IMG/VR virus record: IMGVR_UViG_3300025133_003349
Coordinates: 1-31,470 of that record
Reading direction: 5' to 3' (one strand)
From: a virus
DNA length: 31,470 nucleotides
Made by a program: the position numbers and the translations under genes. Below, piece by piece: positions 1 through 8,908 of this stretch. The notes under the pieces were generated by a model that was given only the letters and a program-made list of their open reading frames with translations, did not search any database and had not been told where the DNA came from. Position 1 is the first letter of the stretch; each line of letters starts with the position of its first letter.

Positions 1-371
1 TCCTAGAAGAAAACTTTGATGAAGATGAACTAGACGAAGATGAACTAGAGATAGATAGACTGTCGATAGATTTATTAAGTGTAGATTTCTTAATAGATTT
101 ATTAGCTTTCATAGAAGGTGAAGAAAGGGTTTCTAAGATTGGAGATGTAACTATAGAAGGTATAACTGCTGGATATGACGCTAAAGCACAAACCTATTCT
201 TTTGTGGATGGAGAGATGCTTACTTTCTTTAGAAGTGTAGAAAATACAATAGACTTACAAATAGAAAAAAGGAGTGCTTACAACATACAGATATTATCTG
301 CTGGTAAATTTATAGATATAACAGTGAACGGAGGAGGAGATGGTACGATTATTATTAATCAGTCTGATTAG
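1..371 (+). CDS. Acidic hypothetical protein, 5' end outside window
   Basis: An open frame runs from the window edge (first full codon at base 3) to a TAG at 369-371, giving the last 122 residues. The first visible part is very acidic (tandem DEDEL-type units), followed by a hydrophobic stretch (roughly residues 20-40) and a beta-rich C-terminal half ending in DGTIIINQSD. I do not recognise a family. Its last 32 bases overlap the start of the curlin-repeat gene, and a GGAGGAGG ribosome binding site for that gene lies inside it, so the two are probably translationally coupled. It could be a tail-associated or secreted protein, but that is a guess. Confidence 0.7.
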   Translation, partial: LEENFDEDELDEDELEIDRLSIDLLSVDFLIDLLAFIEGEERVSKIGDVTIEGITAGYDAKAQTYSFVDGEMLTFFRSVENTIDLQIEKRSAYNIQILSAGKFIDITVNGGGDGTIIINQSD

Positions 372-1122
372 TTTTCCTTTGTTTGCTGGAAATAATACAA
401 CTACTATTCAGCAGAAAGGCGATGACTCCATCATTAACATTAAGCAAGTAGGGTATACAAATAATGCCACAGTCTATTGTGGTTTAAGTAACGGAGTTTA
501 CCAAACACACACCTGTACTAGGGCAACAATCAATTTAAATACCACTGGTTCTGGAAATACGACTAAAGCATATTCTCAATGGTCTAATCACTCAGATAAC
601 ACTTTCAACATAACTCAAGATGGTGATAACAATTATGGGTATCTTGACCTAGACAAAGACGACAATACAGGCACTGTTACGCAGACAGGCGACAGCAATC
701 ATGGCGAGATATTAATGGCAGGAGATGACACAAACTATTCAATAACTCAAACTGGAAATAATAAGTATGCAAAAATTCTTGCATTTGGAGATGATGCCAC
801 TACAACCATTACACAATCAGGAACAGGACAACATAACGCTTACGTCTATAACTACAACTACGCTGATGGTAATACCACAACGATTACACAATCAGGCTCA
901 GGAGACCATGATGCAGATATATTTTGGTATTCAGACGCAGATGATGGAACAGCGTCTATAAATCAATCAGGCTCAGGAGACCATACCGCCAGACTTAATT
1001 TCTATAAAGACGATTACAACGTGGCAGTAACTCAAAGCGGAGCAACAGATAAAAGTTTTACAGCGACCTACAACTGCGTAACCAATTGCACAAAGACTTT
1101 AACTATTACTCAGTATGATTAA
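340..1122 (+). CDS. Secreted curlin-repeat (CsgA/CsgB-like) protein
   Basis: A 260-residue protein. Residues 1-16 form a signal peptide (Arg, Leu/Ile core, FPLFA before GNN). The rest is built from amyloid curlin-type repeats whose strands read (I/V)(T/N/K/Q)QxG. Copies are seen near residues 23, 34, 91, 113, 135, 157, 182, 207 and 230, with a terminal ITQYD at 256. Central spacing is 22-26 residues, as expected for one strand-turn-strand rung of a beta-solenoid. Loops are rich in Asp, Asn, Gly and Tyr. Curlins are secreted and polymerise into extracellular amyloid fibres. No CsgG/E/F-like secretion gene is visible in the window. Start chosen for the strong GGAGGAGG site. The stop overlaps the cyclase start by 8 bases. 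The family call is firm; fibre formation is inferred. Confidence 0.85.
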   Translation: MVRLLLISLISFPLFAGNNTTTIQQKGDDSIINIKQVGYTNNATVYCGLSNGVYQTHTCTRATINLNTTGSGNTTKAYSQWSNHSDNTFNITQDGDNNYGYLDLDKDDNTGTVTQTGDSNHGEILMAGDDTNYSITQTGNNKYAKILAFGDDATTTITQSGTGQHNAYVYNYNYADGNTTTITQSGSGDHDADIFWYSDADDGTASINQSGSGDHTARLNFYKDDYNVAVTQSGATDKSFTATYNCVTNCTKTLTITQYD

Positions 1123-2887
1123 GCGGTTTTTACCTCTAGCTATATTATTAATATTAGGATTGCCAATAATTTATGAGTTTAAACCTTATGAAATACTTAA
1201 ACTTAAAACCTTTGATGCTTTAATACCAGAGCAAGAGCCTTCAGGTTATTTTACTGTACTAAACATAACAGAAGATGATATAACTAGAGAAGGTGGCTAT
1301 CCACTGAGTAGACAAAGGCTCGCTGAAATACAGATAGAAATTTTAAATAGTGGAGCGATAGGTGTCGGTTGGGTAGTCGCCTTTCCTCAACCAGATAGAT
1401 TTGGCGGAGATGCAGAATTCTCTGAAGCCTTATCTTACGCACCAAGTATCTTGGCAATGTTTGAAAATGATAATGGAAATTATCCGCCCACTACTGGAAC
1501 AGTCATTATGGGTGATGACAAAGGTGGTATAGATGCAAAGGGCGTTATTCAGAATATACACATACTCAGACAAAGCGCCAATCAAGGTATAGCCGTAGCA
1601 AGGGTTGAAGTAGATTCTTTAATAAGACGATTGCCCTTATTGCTAAGAACTCCTGATGGTTGGGTTCCTGCTTATGGTACTGAGGTTCTGAAGATATTAA
1701 CTGGTGCTGATACCTACGTTATAAAGACCAATGAAATAGGTATAGAAGAAATAAGAGTTAAAGGTTTACCGCCTGTTAAAACAGATGTACTTGGTCGTAA
1801 GTGGATAAGTTGGGTTGATACACCGCAAACAGACTTAAAGGAAATGAATGTAGAAGGTAAGTTTGTGTTCGTTGGTTTCACGGCAAAAGGGATAATGCCA
1901 CAACTAAGCGTACCTAATGGTCAACTCTTAGAGCCACATAAGATTCAAGCTGCATTAGCTGAGTCTATTCTTATTGAAAACAGTCCTTACGTTCCTGACT
2001 ACGCATTAGCAGTAGAAGCAGGTATATTTGCCCTCTCAGTACTCTTTACGTGGCTTCTGCTGCACGTTTTTGGTATAACCCTTGGCATTACTCTATTTAT
2101 AACTTTGATGCTTACAACGGCTTATTTTAGCTTCTATACAATTCAACAAGGATTGTTAATAGACGTAACATGGACATTAATATCACAGTTCATTACAGGT
2201 TCAGTAGCTTTCTACTTAAGGTTTAGAGAACAGTTTAAATTAAGACAGCAGATTAAAAAACAATTTGAACACTACCTAGACCCTGCACAAGTTAAGAGAT
2301 TACAAAGCAATCCAGAGCTTTTAAAGTTAGGTGGTGAAAAGAGGTACTGTACCTTTTTGTTTACAGATGTCAGAGGTTTCACAGCCATGTCAGAAAACTT
2401 AGAGCCTGAAGATGTCGCTCTAATAATGAATAAAGCTTTAACTGTTCAACAGAAAGCCGTTCAGGTTCATGGCGGAATGGTAGACAAATACATTGGGGAC
2501 GCAATGATGGCTATATTTAATGCTCCTTTAGATTTAGATAACCATGAACAGAAAGCAGTAGACTGTGCATTAAGTATGCAAGAAGGTATGTTATTTCTTA
2601 ATGATGATTTAGAAAAGGAAGGACTTCCTCCTATAGAAATTGGTATAGGTATCCATAGTGGAAAAGCTGTAGTTGGAAACATGGGAAGTGAATCTAGATT
2701 TGATTATACGGCTATAGGAGATGCCGTAAATACAGCAGCAAGAACTGAGTCTGCTTGTAAAGAAGCAGGACATAACCTCTTGATTACTAAAGATACTATT
2801 TCTAAATGTTCAAATACTTTTGAAGTACTCAAGCCTATACCTGTGAAAGGTAAATCTGTTCCTTTAAATATCAATACAATACTTTAA
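1115..2887 (+). CDS. CHASE2-domain receptor class III adenylate/guanylate cyclase
   Basis: A 590-residue membrane protein. It has an N-terminal membrane anchor (residues 5-20), an extracytoplasmic CHASE2 sensor (about 25-290), three membrane helices (about 296-318, 320-342, 349-369), a short linker and a cytosolic class III cyclase domain (about 410-590). All expected catalytic positions are present: metal-binding D418 (FTDVRGFT) and D462 (GDAMMAIF), K458 for the purine, and transition-state N539 and R543 (AVNTAAR). The second purine-selecting residue is T532, the class IIIb pattern, which usually means adenylate cyclase. It would convert ATP to cAMP in response to an outside signal. It lies 8 bases into the curlin gene end, so co-expression is likely. 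I know of no characterised phage homologue. Domain calls are strong; the cAMP product is inferred. Confidence 0.9.
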   Translation: MIKRFLPLAILLILGLPIIYEFKPYEILKLKTFDALIPEQEPSGYFTVLNITEDDITREGGYPLSRQRLAEIQIEILNSGAIGVGWVVAFPQPDRFGGDAEFSEALSYAPSILAMFENDNGNYPPTTGTVIMGDDKGGIDAKGVIQNIHILRQSANQGIAVARVEVDSLIRRLPLLLRTPDGWVPAYGTEVLKILTGADTYVIKTNEIGIEEIRVKGLPPVKTDVLGRKWISWVDTPQTDLKEMNVEGKFVFVGFTAKGIMPQLSVPNGQLLEPHKIQAALAESILIENSPYVPDYALAVEAGIFALSVLFTWLLLHVFGITLGITLFITLMLTTAYFSFYTIQQGLLIDVTWTLISQFITGSVAFYLRFREQFKLRQQIKKQFEHYLDPAQVKRLQSNPELLKLGGEKRYCTFLFTDVRGFTAMSENLEPEDVALIMNKALTVQQKAVQVHGGMVDKYIGDAMMAIFNAPLDLDNHEQKAVDCALSMQEGMLFLNDDLEKEGLPPIEIGIGIHSGKAVVGNMGSESRFDYTAIGDAVNTAARTESACKEAGHNLLITKDTISKCSNTFEVLKPIPVKGKSVPLNINTIL

Positions 2888-3096
2888 AAGGTAGCGTCCA
2901 ACTGAACTTCTATCTTTTTATGTAGAGGTTCTAAAGCTAGTTTAGCTTCTTGTATTGCTTTAAGTATAACAAGTCTATCATCTTTTTGAAATCTATGTAT
3001 TTCTTCTTCAGGGAAGCTAGATATTTCTGTAACTAATTTGTTATCAGAATCAATAACTAACTTCCAACTAATAAGGTTAGCTTCCGATGCCTTCAT
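2884..3096 (-). CDS. Small hypothetical protein downstream of nrdB
   Basis: 70 residues, mostly alpha-helical and charged (KLVTEISSFPEEE, then a Lys/Glu helix). No family recognised. Its start lies inside the last codons of nrdB (20-base overlap), so translation is probably coupled. It is the last gene of the leftward operon. Its stop overlaps the stop of the convergent cyclase gene by 4 bases, leaving no room for a terminator. Confidence 0.65.
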   Translation of the reverse strand: MKASEANLISWKLVIDSDNKLVTEISSFPEEEIHRFQKDDRLVILKAIQEAKLALEPLHKKIEVQLDATF

Positions 3097-4066
3097 TATT
3101 TATCTCCATAAAGTTTACAACATCTTGTTTCCCACGAAGTCCTGCTTTCATGTAAGAAGTTGCTCGACCTTCAAAAAAGTTTTGATGTTCAACACCCATA
3201 ACTTCATCAATCCAACCTAAAGGATTCTCTCGTTGGTCGTAGTTTGTTTTTAATCCTAGCTGAAGTAATCTTCTATCAGCTATATATCTGTTGTATGCAT
3301 ACATGTCTTTCTTTGTAAGACCTTGTAAGTCTCCCATTTCGAATACTAAATCAAGAAACTTATCTTCAAGCGTAACCATTTCTCTACAGATTTCATAAAG
3401 TTCTTTCTTAAAATTATCTGTCCAGATATCAAGATTCTCTTGTATAAATTCTCTAAACAACTGTGTCATAGCCTCAACGTGTAATGATTCATCGCGTATA
3501 GAGTACGTAACTATCTGCCCCATACCTTTCATTTTACCAAAGCGAGGGAAGTTTAGCAAGATAGCAAAACTACTAAAGAGTTGTAAGCCTTCTGTAAATG
3601 CCGAGTAAACTGCTAAAGTTTTAGCAATAGTTTTTTTATCTTTTTTACGCGGCTTAAAGGTTGATATATAATCATGTTTAGCTGCCATTTCTTCGTACTC
3701 TGAGAAAGCTTTGTATTCTATTTCAGGCATACCTACTGTATCAAGTAGTACACTATATGCATCTTGGTGTATACCCTCCATATTTACAAAAGAACCCATC
3801 ATCATTCTAGCTTCAGGCTTTCTAAACATAGGCATATACTTATCTATATACCCCGAAGCTACGTCTACATCTGATTGAGTAAACAGTCTAAATATTTGAG
3901 TTAATAGGTTTTTTTCTTCAGGTGAAATTTCTTGCCAGTCTTTTACGTCTGTATGTAGGGGCACAGAGTCAGTCACCCAATGCATTTGATTTTGTAATTT
4001 AAAGTAATCGTACATCCACGGGTACTCAAAAGGTTTGTAGTAATCTCTATTGCTTAGTAAGCTCAT
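3077..4066 (-). CDS. nrdB: Class I ribonucleotide reductase, beta (R2) subunit
   Basis: A 329-residue R2 subunit that generates and holds the tyrosyl radical used by the alpha subunit to make deoxyribonucleotides. The di-iron ligands are recognisable by spacing: D66, E97 and H100 (EGIH), E159 (FTEG), E193 and H196 (RDESLH). The radical tyrosine is Y104, seven residues after E97 as in E. coli. Length and residues are typical of an active phage R2. It overlaps the HNH gene by 4 bases and lies downstream of nrdA in the same leftward operon, separated from it by an HNH endonuclease and a 56-residue ORF. Confidence 0.97.
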   Translation of the reverse strand: MSLLSNRDYYKPFEYPWMYDYFKLQNQMHWVTDSVPLHTDVKDWQEISPEEKNLLTQIFRLFTQSDVDVASGYIDKYMPMFRKPEARMMMGSFVNMEGIHQDAYSVLLDTVGMPEIEYKAFSEYEEMAAKHDYISTFKPRKKDKKTIAKTLAVYSAFTEGLQLFSSFAILLNFPRFGKMKGMGQIVTYSIRDESLHVEAMTQLFREFIQENLDIWTDNFKKELYEICREMVTLEDKFLDLVFEMGDLQGLTKKDMYAYNRYIADRRLLQLGLKTNYDQRENPLGWIDEVMGVEHQNFFEGRATSYMKAGLRGKQDVVNFMEINNEGIGS

Positions 4067-4650
4067 GTGTTCTCCTGTAAATAGTTAATTGCTTTTGTTA
4101 ATTTTTGTATATCATCTTTAAAATGTCCTAGACCTAGGTTACACATACCACATAAAATACCTCTAATTTTATTAGTTGTGTGACAATGGTCTACATGAAT
4201 ATGTTTTGTATCCAAAATAGTAAAAGAAGTTAAACAAATTTTACATTTATCATTTTGTTCGTCTAACATATTCTTATAGTCTTCAGATGATAATCCATAT
4301 TTTTTCTCTCTCCAATAAGCAGCTTTCTGTTCTTTATTTTTTTCATTATATTCTTTTCTTTGAGCAGCTATCTGTTCTTTATTTTTTTCATAATATTCTT
4401 TTTGTTGAGCAGCTATCTGTTCTTTATTTTTTTCATTATATTCTTTTTGTTGAGCAGCTATCTGTTCTTTATTTTTTTCTCTGTATTCTTTAATAGCTTC
4501 TTTATTTTTTTCTCTGTATTCTTTTTGTTGAGCAAGACGTTTTTCTCTATTATCTTCTTGATATGTTTTTACTCTATCACATATAGCTTCTTTATTTTTT
4601 ATATAATATTCTTTATCATAAGCAGCTTTCTGTTCTTTAGTTTGAGACAT
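4063..4650 (-). CDS. HNH endonuclease of the endonuclease VII type, inserted between nrdA and nrdB
   Basis: A longer frame opens at 4683, but the ATG at 4650 follows a perfect GGAGG at 6-base spacing, so I use that start (195 residues). The N-terminal two thirds is a Lys/Glu/Gln coiled coil of near-identical 15-residue units (core YNEKNKEQIAAQQKE). The C-terminal 75 residues form a recombination endonuclease VII/HNH domain: zinc cysteines C136/C139 and C167/C170, catalytic HVDHCH at about 152-157, and N171. Enzymes of this fold cut DNA. Free-standing HNH or GIY-YIG genes between nrdA and nrdB are a known homing-endonuclease niche (mobE of T4-like phages), so a homing role is likely but not proven. 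The low-complexity coil may be a DNA-tracking spacer. Confidence 0.85.
   Translation of the reverse strand: MSQTKEQKAAYDKEYYIKNKEAICDRVKTYQEDNREKRLAQQKEYREKNKEAIKEYREKNKEQIAAQQKEYNEKNKEQIAAQQKEYYEKNKEQIAAQRKEYNEKNKEQKAAYWREKKYGLSSEDYKNMLDEQNDKCKICLTSFTILDTKHIHVDHCHTTNKIRGILCGMCNLGLGHFKDDIQKLTKAINYLQENT
4319..4498. repeat. Tandem 45-bp repeats inside the HNH gene
   Basis: Four copies of a 45-base unit start at 4319, 4364, 4409 and 4454, each beginning GCAGCT on the plus strand. The middle copies are almost identical. They encode the 15-residue coiled-coil repeats. Such repeats expand and contract by slippage, so the coil length may vary between relatives. Confidence 0.9.
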
Positions 4651-4807
4651 TATATTCCTCCACTTGTTTAGCATACTTTTCAAGTAGCCATTTGTTATAA
4701 GTTTTAATATATTCTTCTTCAGTTAATTTTACTGCACCAAAGGCTGAGTTCTCGTCACAATGGTCTAGCCACATACGAGTGCAAAAACTTTTAAAATTAT
4801 TTGACAT
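4637..4807 (-). CDS. Small hypothetical protein between nrdA and the HNH gene
   Basis: A 56-residue frame starts (MSNNFKSFCTRMW...) 2 bases after the nrdA stop, preceded by GAGGGA formed by the last nrdA codons. It ends (EEYNVSN) overlapping the HNH start by 14 bases. It is predicted helical, with no recognised domain. The tight packing on both sides supports a real gene. It may belong to the ancestral nrdA-nrdB intergenic segment rather than to the HNH insertion. Confidence 0.65.
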   Translation of the reverse strand: MSNNFKSFCTRMWLDHCDENSAFGAVKLTEEEYIKTYNKWLLEKYAKQVEEYNVSN

Positions 4808-4809
4808 CT

Positions 4810-6702
4810 TTATCCCTCACAAGCTATACAATCTACCTCGTCTAATTTAATACGCGGTATCTTAATATTAACATTCTCTGCAGTTCTAGCAGCATCTGAC
4901 CTAAAGTAATATAAAGACTTTAGTTTGTGCATAGCATACCAATGTACATCGTTGACATACTGCATATAATCGTCATGTATTTCTTGACTGTCTGTAGTCT
5001 TAGGTAATGTAAAAAATAAATTAACACTTTGACTTTGGCAAATATACTGTTGTCTCATATGAGCGTGTTCAACTATCCAGATTTGATTTAACTCATCTGC
5101 TGTTTTAAATATTTCTTTTTCTTTATCTGTAAAGATATCCATGTCTTGTATAGAACCTTTCTTAGCAGTTATCTCTTTCCAAATTTTTACTTTACTTCCT
5201 TTCTTCTTAGAAATAATCTTATCTAAGTATTTATTTTTAACTTGGTACGAACCTGAGAGAGTTTTGTGTGTAAAAATGTTCGCACGATTTGGTTCAATAC
5301 TAGGGGAAGTGCCACCGCATATAATACTACTACTGGCATTAGGAGCAATAGCCAAAAGGTGAGCGTTACGCATACCTGAACCACTAATATCAGGAGCTTC
5401 ACCACGATTCTCCGCAAGAACTTTACTCGCAGCCACGGACTTAGTTTTAATATGGTTAAAAGCTTTGTTGTTAAATCCTGTAGCAAAGATTCCCTCAAAT
5501 GGAATGTTATTTTTTTGAAGATAGGCATGGAAGCCCATTGCCCCCAAACCAAGTGACCTTTCTCTATAAGCAGAGAAGCTAGATTTTGTGAAGCCTTCCT
5601 TACCTTCTCGTATATAACTTTTAAACCTTTTAAAATTTGCATTGTAATCTCCTAATTCTGTTGTATCAATTGCGTTGTCTATGAAATGTTGAATAACATT
5701 ATCCAACATAGTAATTAAATCTGATATAAAGTTTTCATCTTTGGACCATTTATCAAAATGTTCTAGGTTTACTGAAGACAAACAACAGACTGCAGTTCTT
5801 TCTTCATTGGTTGGTAAGGTTATTTCAGAACATAAATTACTTTGCTTAATATCTAAACCTAAATCTTTCTGACCTTTTGGTAAAGCATCATTACAAGTAT
5901 CTATATTAACCATGTAAGGCTCACCTGTCTCTGCTCTAGCGTGTATTATCTGCCACCATAAATCCCTAGCATTAACAGTCTTAACTGCTTCACCTGTCTT
6001 AGGGTCTATGAGTCTCCAGTCTGCATCTTCTTGTACGGCTTGTAAAAACTCATTGGTTATATTAACTCCGTTGTGAATGTTAAGGCACTTCCTATTTATA
6101 TCTCCACCTGATTCTTTTCTTATGTTTATGAACTCTTCTATTTCAGGGTGGTCAATATTCATGTAAGAAGCATAGCTTCCTCGTCTTGTAACTCCCTGAT
6201 TAAATGCTAACATCTGAGAGTCAACTACTTTCATGAATGGAATTGAACCAGTAGAACGACTATTGTTAGCAGTAGCAATGCCGTTACTTCTAACATCTCC
6301 CCAATATCCACCAATACCTCCACCTGAACTAGCGAGCCATATGTTTTCATCATAATGAGAAGATAACCCGTCACGGCTATCAGGTACGTAATTGAGAAAG
6401 CAGCTAATAGGTAGACCCCGATTAGTTCCCCCATTGCTAAGAATAGGAGTGCTAAACATGAACCATAGAGAGGAACTGTACGTATAAAGTCTTTGAGCCA
6501 ACTCAAAATCCGTAACTCCTTTAAAGGTTGCTCCGAATATTGATGCTCTTGCGAATGCTTCTTGTGCATATGTTTCTCCTGATGCTTCGTAAAGATACCT
6601 ATCCTTTAAAGTATCTAAACTGAATTTATTTAATTTGTTTTCGTTGTTATAATCTATTTTAATACCTAAGTATTCCTTTTGACCTACCTTGTCTTCGACC
6701 AT
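4810..6702 (-). CDS. nrdA: Class I ribonucleotide reductase, alpha (R1) subunit
   Basis: A 630-residue catalytic subunit reducing ribonucleoside diphosphates. Visible active-site elements are redox Cys C101 (PISCFLNY), the NLCSEI motif with N289, thiyl C291 and E293, the second redox Cys near C306/C307 (AVCCLSSVN), the radical-transfer tyrosine pair Y598/Y599, and a C-terminal swinging-arm pair C625/C628 (CIAC). The N-terminus begins directly in the catalytic barrel. The roughly 90-residue ATP-cone that gives dATP shut-off in E. coli NrdA is absent, so the enzyme is probably insensitive to overall activity inhibition. The start overlaps the upstream stop (TAATG), with GGAGAA just before it. 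It pairs with nrdB at 3077-4066. Confidence 0.97.
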   Translation of the reverse strand: MVEDKVGQKEYLGIKIDYNNENKLNKFSLDTLKDRYLYEASGETYAQEAFARASIFGATFKGVTDFELAQRLYTYSSSLWFMFSTPILSNGGTNRGLPISCFLNYVPDSRDGLSSHYDENIWLASSGGGIGGYWGDVRSNGIATANNSRSTGSIPFMKVVDSQMLAFNQGVTRRGSYASYMNIDHPEIEEFINIRKESGGDINRKCLNIHNGVNITNEFLQAVQEDADWRLIDPKTGEAVKTVNARDLWWQIIHARAETGEPYMVNIDTCNDALPKGQKDLGLDIKQSNLCSEITLPTNEERTAVCCLSSVNLEHFDKWSKDENFISDLITMLDNVIQHFIDNAIDTTELGDYNANFKRFKSYIREGKEGFTKSSFSAYRERSLGLGAMGFHAYLQKNNIPFEGIFATGFNNKAFNHIKTKSVAASKVLAENRGEAPDISGSGMRNAHLLAIAPNASSSIICGGTSPSIEPNRANIFTHKTLSGSYQVKNKYLDKIISKKKGSKVKIWKEITAKKGSIQDMDIFTDKEKEIFKTADELNQIWIVEHAHMRQQYICQSQSVNLFFTLPKTTDSQEIHDDYMQYVNDVHWYAMHKLKSLYYFRSDAARTAENVNIKIPRIKLDEVDCIACEG

Positions 6703-7621: not shown

Positions 7622-8532
7622 ATTATTTCCTTTACGTTTGGTAGCTTCTCTACCTTAGTTAAATATACATTACCTTTTGCATATGCGAATGTTCGTAACC
7701 CTTTACCTTCATTAACATCTGAATAGCATGTAAATTTATGAGGGCAATAGTTGCATCCCATTGGTAATTTCATGTTACCAGAAACACCCTCCGCTATAAT
7801 ATTATAGCATCTGTCAGGAGGGTTGTCAAGAGCAATAGCCTTTTTAACCTCTTTTATTTTGTGAACAATGTTTGGCTTCTCTAAATCGTCAGGAATAAAG
7901 GTAGTTAATTCTCCTGTTTCTTTATTCATAACTAAGAAACCACCATTAGAAGTCTGCTCTGCTTCTTCATACCCTGCTAACTGTGAAAGATATCCGAAGT
8001 TATCGTTTTGGGCAAGCGTACCCTCTTTAAATTTCTTAAACGCAAACCCTGATGCAGTCTTAACATCAATAACTTCTCCGTCTATAATAGAATCCATATG
8101 TCCTTTGATGCCTTTAACTGATACTTCTTTTTGTTCTCCTGATACAACGTGCCCTGAAAGACGAACAAAGAATAAAAGTAAAACTTCAAGTAAATGTCCA
8201 TACAAAAACTTAATGAATGTAGGGGCATCTATCTTCTCTTGATGTTCCTCTGATAAGTTTAAATCATACCATAGTCTACGTAGAGGTCTACCAATATTAG
8301 ACATTCTTAAACCGCTTTTAGGTCTAGGTTGTGGGGTTGCCCACCCTCTTAAAGCATCAGACATTTCCTGACCAAACTTTTCATAGTCTTCGTCTGATAT
8401 TTTAATAGCTTTATCTTCCGATAAAACTCCTATAGTTTTATAGATATCTTCTACAAGAGTATCTAGTTTAGGCAACTTCTTTTTTGTCTGTTTCTTTTTC
8501 ATCTTTAATTTCTTTAAAAGCTTTGATAACAT
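7618..8532 (-). CDS. PD-(D/E)XK exonuclease, Cas4/RecB-like
   Basis: 304 residues from the first ATG; a second ATG at 8502 is equally possible, and neither has a clear ribosome site. The RecB-type nuclease core is visible: H113 and E116 (GHLLE), D147 (GHMD), D156-x-K158 (VIDVKTAS) and Q184 (YLSQLAGY). C260, C263 and C269 (CNYC-x5-C) near the C-terminus resemble the iron-sulfur cysteines of Cas4/AddB nucleases, with a fourth ligand not obvious (C242 is a candidate). Such phage enzymes process DNA ends for recombination and replication. The Lys-rich N-terminus may be disordered. A consensus promoter lies inside the gene at 7801-7829. Confidence 0.82.
   Translation of the reverse strand: MLSKLLKKLKMKKKQTKKKLPKLDTLVEDIYKTIGVLSEDKAIKISDEDYEKFGQEMSDALRGWATPQPRPKSGLRMSNIGRPLRRLWYDLNLSEEHQEKIDAPTFIKFLYGHLLEVLLLFFVRLSGHVVSGEQKEVSVKGIKGHMDSIIDGEVIDVKTASGFAFKKFKEGTLAQNDNFGYLSQLAGYEEAEQTSNGGFLVMNKETGELTTFIPDDLEKPNIVHKIKEVKKAIALDNPPDRCYNIIAEGVSGNMKLPMGCNYCPHKFTCYSDVNEGKGLRTFAYAKGNVYLTKVEKLPNVKEII
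7793..7829 (-). promoter_or_regulatory. Perfect consensus promoter and 16-bp palindrome inside the Cas4-like gene
   Basis: On the minus strand, TTGACA (7824-7829) and TATAAT (7801-7806) are exactly 17 bases apart. The -10 lies in a perfect 16-bp palindrome GCTATAATATTATAGC (7793-7808). It would drive the resolvase, DUF3310-like and nrdA/nrdB genes separately from the replication genes upstream. Confidence 0.7.
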
Positions 8533-8908
8533 CTGACGAGAATAGTTTTTGTAAGTTCACTAAGAACATACGACTCGCATTGTTATCTCCACCCGATACA
8601 GTTTTAAAAGTATCTAGTTTATCGACTATCTTTCTGAGAGTATCTGTATGGAAAACAAGAGTGCAGTACTCGTCTTTACCTATACACAGGTTATGAAACC
8701 AGTAATCAGACTCAGTTGCTCTAATGCCTGAAGGTTTACCCCAAGACTCGTACTCAATGCAAATGTTACCTGACTTCTGCCAAATATCTCTTTCTGATTT
8801 GACTTCTATCTTTTTATTAGTGAGCATGTCTGCTATCTTTTCTTCTCTAACAGTACCATACTGTAAATCTAAATCAAATTTCTTTCTATCTTTTTTAGTG
8901 GGTTTCAT
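8468..8908 (-). CDS. Putative PD-(D/E)XK nuclease-like protein
   Basis: 146 residues from the ATG at 8908, chosen over 8944 because AAGGAG precedes it at 6-base spacing. It has an early acidic helix (REEKIADML), then IEVKSE with E35-x-K37, then ICIEYESWGKPSGI and DYWFH. This layout fits small PD-(D/E)XK restriction-like nucleases (Hjc/VRR style), with E23, E35 and K37 as candidate active-site residues. The rest is helical with a charged tail. It lies between the polymerase and the Cas4-like gene in the replication operon. The exact substrate is unknown, and it could be a nuclease-fold protein without activity. Confidence 0.65.
   Translation of the reverse strand: MKPTKKDRKKFDLDLQYGTVREEKIADMLTNKKIEVKSERDIWQKSGNICIEYESWGKPSGIRATESDYWFHNLCIGKDEYCTLVFHTDTLRKIVDKLDTFKTVSGGDNNASRMFLVNLQKLFSSDVIKAFKEIKDEKETDKKEVA

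Follow-up and report, generated by a model that had tools for sequence, protein, structure and literature searches.

A phage type VIII (curli) secretion module ending in a FecR-domain protein, a curlin-repeat protein and a predicted CHASE2 adenylate cyclase on an HMO-2011-type contig

Results

The first 2,887 bases of the IMG/VR virus record IMGVR_UViG_3300025133_003349 almost certainly form the 3′ end of a phage type VIII (curli) secretion module. The record is linear, and its whole stretch of 31,470 bases was analysed and is referred to here as the window. Because the window begins within the gene of a FecR-domain protein (FecR), only the end of the module is seen; base 2887 is its right end, and the left end lies beyond the window. 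Three genes of the module are present:

3–371 (+): FecR-domain protein, C-terminal third, ending in TIIINQSD (phrog_37870 positions 262–381 of 382, E 1e-4); the 5′ part is off the contig
340–1122 (+): curlin-repeat protein, the second curlin of the module (curlin 2; Pfam Curlin_rpt, E 3e-13)
1115–2887 (+): predicted CHASE2 receptor adenylate cyclase (Pfam CHASE2 and Guanylate_cyc; phrog_35576, E 5e-118)

An initial annotation, made from the sequence by itself, had described a secreted curlin-repeat protein and a complete CHASE2-cyclase gene beginning 8 bases before its end, both located in a phage and placed at the end of the late operon. The details given below bear out all of these points.

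Gene order and spread of the module

Related viral loci were retrieved by the cyclase (80) and by the curlin (59), some of them lying on one and the same contig. The adjacency seen in the window is also found in these related phages, the gene order recurring in more than 100 loci. The whole module in the relatives consists of one or two small membrane coiled-coil proteins, CsgF, CsgG, curlin 1, FecR, in some cases curlin 2, and the CHASE2 cyclase. Where over 4.5 kb of sequence precedes the cyclase, CsgF, CsgG and FecR are all present (54 of 54 loci), and every locus with over 1 kb contains FecR; the Pfam matches in one relative (L009) have E values of 3e-53 for CsgG, 2e-14 for CsgF, 1e-6 for curlin 1 and 3e-12 for FecR. 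In 45 loci nothing intervenes between FecR and the cyclase, and in 69 a curlin-sized gap lies between them, a ratio biased by the curlin-based retrieval. The constant neighbour of the cyclase is thus FecR, with curlin 2 an optional member. The adjacency of curlin and cyclase emphasised in the initial annotation is therefore recurrent, but the two do not form a dedicated pair.

Two contigs show the module in the company of the window's own neighbouring genes. L002, from another record and collinear with the window, carries CsgG, curlin 1, FecR, curlin 2, the cyclase and a ribonucleotide reductase (RNR) gene in this order. The 34-kb contig G005 is collinear with the window as well, its main structural and replication proteins being approximately 50–84% identical, and encodes a membrane protein, CsgF, CsgG, a curlin, FecR, the cyclase, a 70-residue open reading frame (ORF) and RNR, with no second curlin. 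The module was also found on G032, whose HK97-like head protein, tape measure and tail fibre J indicate an HK97-type siphovirus backbone. Altogether it occurs on at least four phage backbones, and the window terminase is shared by only one of 39 carrier records tested, many of these records being fragments. Judged by the encoded proteins, its presence on HMO-2011-type (window, G005) and HK97-type siphovirus (G032) backbones is new here, and the spread over at least four backbones suggests strong, repeated selection for the module.

The FecR-domain protein carries a curlin-like terminal strand

The complete FecR gene lies at 1215–2279 of L002, with 94% identity in the part overlapping the window. 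A curlin-like strand terminates 86 of 86 distinct phage FecR C-termini, against 4.4 expected from shuffles; TIIINQSD, AITINQTN and TITIKQGSG are examples, and copies merely 34–38% identical overall have it too. The 86 sequences are relatives of each other and thus do not count as 86 independent events. The strand was not found in the adjacent cyclase, CsgG or CsgF, nor is it visible in the C-termini of bacterial FecR partners among those listed. At its N-terminus the phage protein resembles a signal peptide, and the loci read show neither a sigma-factor gene nor a receptor gene beside it. Iron-citrate transmembrane regulators have a cytoplasmic N-terminus followed by a transmembrane segment and lie beside genes for a sigma factor and a TonB receptor; the phage protein departs from this pattern and shares with them the FecR domain only. 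Given the curlin-like end, the signal peptide and the lack of a sigma-factor neighbour, the phage FecR is more likely an exported, fibre-associated protein than an iron-uptake regulator.

The second curlin

Curlin 2 comprises 260 residues, the first of which resemble a signal peptide (MVRLLLISLISFPLFAGNN). There are 9 copies of the motif [ILV]xQxG compared with 0.18 expected (2000 shuffles, maximum 4), within approximately ten repeats in all, and an extra strand, ITITQYD, terminates the protein. It matches the solved curlin-repeat chain 8c50 (E 1.5e-7), and its AlphaFold2 model contains 20 short strands and is of fair quality (predicted local distance difference test score (pLDDT) 78, predicted template modelling score (pTM) 0.82). 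Cysteines 47, 59, 246 and 250 are kept in an alignment of 12 relatives, which suggests that the fibre subunits may contain disulfides; many curlin 1 proteins end in a QC..GC terminus (for example L009:3516-4211). Compared with its three closest relatives, curlin 2 diverges by 0.36–0.54 at third codon positions versus 0.05–0.09 at first and second positions, and by this measure the gene is under purifying selection.

The predicted cyclase

The cyclase ORF encodes 590 residues, and its start overlaps the stop of curlin 2 by exactly 8 bases. Both Pfam domains lie above their cut-offs (CHASE2, E 1e-18, 67.9 bits versus a cut-off of 26.3; Guanylate_cyc, E 9e-20). The predicted layout is an N-terminal transmembrane segment, a periplasmic CHASE2 domain, one or more hydrophobic segments and a cytoplasmic class III cyclase; hydrophobic segments lie at 1–23 and 314–332, and further transmembrane helices after CHASE2 fall under a simple hydropathy threshold. 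The motifs DVRGFT (418), DKYIGDAMMA (457) and FDYTAIGDAVNTAAR (529) hold an intact set of class III catalytic residues, namely the two metal-binding aspartates D418 and D462, the substrate residues K458 and D530 and the transition-state residues N539 and R543. We take K458 and D530 to be the positions that favour ATP over GTP in class III enzymes. The protein also matches the solved cyclases 6fht, 2w01 and 3r5g, and it is predicted to produce cyclic AMP (cAMP). Two of the related loci carry a tandem pair of cyclase-like frames, and L131 and L132 contain an additional stretch between FecR and the cyclase, beyond the usual arrangement.

Bacterial counterparts

Among bacteria, the CHASE2 cyclases closest to the phage enzyme come mostly from alphaproteobacteria and are approximately 30% identical to it. 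In alphaproteobacteria, a FecR-domain gene lies directly upstream of the CHASE2 cyclase in 18 of 71 loci with room for it, never with csg genes nearby (such pairs without curli genes include L157, L161, L166–L169, L171, L180, L181, L187, L188, L204 and L231). The existence of bacterial pairs led us to reject the idea that the FecR–cyclase pair is a phage invention. Conversely, neither FecR nor a cyclase was found within 20-kb stretches of five alphaproteobacterial csg operons, and no operon uniting csg, FecR and cyclase genes was found in these five operons or beside 80 cyclases. In this small sample, the distribution is what one would expect if the phage module had been formed by joining two separate bacterial modules.

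Two families of small-genome alphaproteobacteria were considered as candidate hosts. Their genomes of 0.7–1.6 Mb, with rhodopsin in G101 and G167, look like those of streamlined marine lineages. One 1.3-Mb small-genome alphaproteobacterium with rhodopsin (G362) has class III cyclase-like and FecR-domain genes approximately 1.3 kb apart (L301), and no cNMP-binding domain was found in its genome.

Phage backbone, flanking genes and junction

Terminase, portal, and major head and tail proteins encoded in the window identify a tailed phage, and DNA polymerase A, a primase-helicase and ribonucleotide reductase are encoded as well. The terminase is 67% identical to those of Pelagibacter phages HTVC115P, HTVC103P and HTVC104P and 40–50% identical to those of other HMO-2011-type phages; on these matches, the backbone is that of an HMO-2011-type pelagiphage. 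Two backbone genes follow the module on the opposite strand:

2884–3096 (−): 70-residue ORF converging on the cyclase, the right boundary of the module, kept 3′ of the cyclase in relatives
3077–4066 (−): RNR small subunit (Pfam Ribonuc_red_sm, E 1e-72)

The 70-residue ORF occupies the identical place 3′ of the cyclase in L002 (100% identity), L003, L011, L017 and L116. RNR lies directly beside the cyclase in eight loci, and the top phage match of the window's small subunit is that of HTVC115P (72%). In HTVC115P, the closest cultured relative, the late genes converge on the RNR gene at the corresponding place, where the late strand carries small hypothetical genes and Hsp20 and is without curli genes; the late genes of G005 converge on RNR in the same way. 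In the window lineage the module therefore closes the late operon on its 3′ side. A promoter scan gave no enrichment over shuffles. The two ribonucleotide reductase genes are separated by a gene at 4063–4683 (−) that encodes an endonuclease VII domain and is rich in repeats (EKNKEQIAAQQKEY units); it looks like a mobile, homing-endonuclease-like insertion because window base 4076 runs straight into 4648 in contig L003.

The initial annotation had named a chimeric join of bases 1–2887 to bacterial DNA as a danger to its reading. The contig does begin within the module, as a misassembly of bacterial DNA onto a phage contig might, but the junction recurs in independent contigs: L002 is 95.5% identical over window positions 1–5000, including the cyclase–RNR junction, L003 is 92% identical, and the cyclase-to-RNR neighbours of L011, L017/G005, L108 and L116 are 72–87% identical. 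Base composition alters little over the junction. A misjoin is rejected on these grounds and can be regarded as practically out of the question. Two further contigs (L082 and L083) align with the window at approximately 89% identity as far as base 2383, encode a curlin protein that is 100% identical, and then cease to align within the cyclase domain, a break that points to mosaic exchange within the module.

Lysis-linked neighbours

In all 66 loci with enough sequence ahead of csgF, this gene follows one or two genes for small proteins (phrog_18771) of 85–127 residues, each with a single transmembrane segment and a coiled coil; HTVC008M and Melnitz have two such proteins apiece. No Pfam kinase domain was found in them, and they show marginal similarity to the holin phrog_4898 (best E 1e-4 to 2e-4). 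By their shared place, they are most likely the ‘histidine kinase, sometimes two’ genes of Wittmers 2022 (PMC9599517). Of 112 loci, 61 encode Rz/Rz1-like spanins no more than 1.5 kb 3′ of the cyclase, and some have a lysozyme gene ahead of the module. In many related phages (for example L009:1022-2009 and 7798-8542, and L097/G032), the module sits within a lysis cassette, with a lysozyme and small membrane proteins before it and Rz/Rz1-like spanins after it. The main text of Wittmers 2022 (PMC9599517) makes no mention of holins, spanins or lysozymes.

Discussion

Based on the gene content and order of the module, we propose the following hypothetical multistep working in which (i) late in infection, a CsgG/CsgF pore would be placed in the outer membrane and export the curlin-repeat subunits; (ii) the exported subunits would assemble into amyloid on the cell surface; (iii) the FecR-domain protein would also be exported and would join or dock on the amyloid via its curlin-like terminal strand; (iv) the CHASE2 cyclase in the inner membrane would read the status of FecR and curlin in the periplasm and convert it into cAMP. 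We consider the scenario reasonably probable as far as late curlin secretion and a surface amyloid, and we put forward sensing through FecR and CHASE2 as a tentative proposal. A bolder version seems rather unlikely to us: the module would be a composite surface machine that joins curli export to a FecR–CHASE2 sensor, in which FecR gained a curlin strand for docking and the cyclase reports the state of fibre and envelope from a late, lysis-linked cassette, a feedback that would link the time of release to the deployment of the amyloid. If the proposed working is true, some of the commonest phages of the ocean equip a host that has no curli (Wittmers 2022, PMC9599517) with secreted amyloid and a cAMP sensor just before it lyses, and our picture of how phages reach the next cell, exclude rivals or time their release would change. 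The terminal strand common to FecR and curlin would tie the sensor pair to the fibre in a specific way that can be put to the test.

Several observations weigh against this proposal. CsgF and CsgG lie outside the window and are known for its lineage from L002 (CsgG) and G005 (both); curlin 2 is absent from many modules; a Foldseek search with its model against the PDB returned nothing significant (best E 4.5e-3); and the AlphaFold2 model of FecR is unusable (pLDDT 34). Cells infected with Melnitz showed no clumping (Buchholz 2022, PMC9004378). Some phage cyclases look degenerate, L130 being without the substrate lysine and Melnitz having S in place of the catalytic N. A search of 15 phage records that carry the module gave no cNMP-binding protein, and in the two small-genome alphaproteobacterial families the domain turned up in 0 of 52 and 4 of 99 genomes, a rarity that is suggestive only; nothing useful was found in the literature on cAMP in SAR11. 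The output of the cyclase is the weakest link of the model and is left unexplained, because no cAMP receptor was found in these phages and few were found in the candidate hosts.

The lysis-linked neighbours raise the alternative that the module is a device for lysis or envelope permeability, in which the CsgG/CsgF pore together with holin-like proteins and spanins would time or assist lysis, the curlin and FecR would gate the pore and the cyclase would report the state of the envelope. The invariant small transmembrane coiled-coil proteins before csgF, the frequent spanins and the occasional lysozyme fit such a device, and a pinholin/secretin, lysis-related pore role was proposed for CsgF/CsgG of Melnitz by Buchholz 2022 (PMC9004378). 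However, a role of the pore by itself needs no two curlin genes under selection, the window lineage has RNR rather than spanins after the cyclase, the holin similarity is marginal, and shared late expression would by itself bring lysis genes beside the module. We regard this alternative as rather improbable.

For the cyclase considered separately, its intact catalytic site and its retention with or without curlin 2 would also suit an independent auxiliary metabolic gene whose cAMP reprogrammes host metabolism, its adjacency to the curlin being mere operon convenience. This is difficult to reconcile with a cyclase that lies behind CsgF, CsgG and FecR in every locus with sufficient upstream sequence, on at least four backbones, and CHASE2 is an extracytoplasmic sensor domain; in addition, few of the sampled small-genome alphaproteobacteria have a cAMP receptor. 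We judge such a role to be quite unlikely. Even less can be said for the curlin protein as a virion component or a tail-fibre-like adhesin coating the particles. Its late position and its character as an export-type beta-repeat protein would be compatible with it, but the signal peptide and the constant linkage to CsgG and CsgF indicate secretion from the cell and not virion assembly. We found no evidence in favour of the amyloid coat on the virion that the initial annotation had contemplated, and we consider a place in the particle very improbable. Secretion of curlin subunits to the surface of the infected cell thus stays our preferred reading.

The initial annotation had also held that no described phage system pairs a curlin with a CHASE2 cyclase. 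This is incorrect, as the module has been published. CsgF/CsgG were reported from pelagimyophages by Zaragoza-Solas 2020 (PMC7029224), with ‘sibling capture’ as the proposed explanation, and from Melnitz by Buchholz 2022 (PMC9004378). The entire module, in the order CsgF-CsgG-curlin-FecR-(curlin)-adenylate cyclase, was reported by Wittmers 2022 (PMC9599517) for both HTVC023P-type podoviruses and pelagimyophages, along with its expression in metatranscriptomes and a transfer between these two phage families. The genes and their order equal those described here. In contrast to that pelagiphage module, the present one is located on an HMO-2011-type backbone, with a terminase closest to that of HTVC115P, its FecR ends in a curlin strand and its small transmembrane proteins are without a kinase domain.

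Pelagibacter phage HTVC008M (KC465899) and Methylophilales phage Melnitz (MZ577098) have an identical gene order, with an annotated curlin-associated protein and an adenylate/guanylyl cyclase that is 32–33% identical over 89–96% of its length. Unlike the window, both are T4-like large myophages, and their curlin 2 and cyclase are merely 23–33% identical to those of the window. The bacterial FecR/CHASE2 pairs of Bradyrhizobium, Thalassospira, Pelagibius and others share with the phage module an exported FecR-domain protein directly upstream of the cyclase; in contrast, they have no csg genes nearby, and their FecR proteins of 325–1768 residues are without a curlin-like terminal strand among those listed. 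Canonical curli systems (csgBAC/csgDEFG of Enterobacteriaceae and alphaproteobacterial csg operons) have the CsgG/CsgF pore and curlin-repeat subunits in common with the module, whereas the phages lack CsgD and CsgE (Wittmers 2022, PMC9599517) and the five alphaproteobacterial csg operons lack FecR and cyclase. The enterobacterial cAMP–CRP–CsgD route of curli control, to which the initial annotation had appealed, is not a safe analogy, since cAMP receptors were not found in the 15 phage records and are rare in the candidate hosts, and CsgD is reported to be missing as well. We found no literature report joining HMO-2011-type phages with curli, and the window adds a member from this lineage to the phage module already published.

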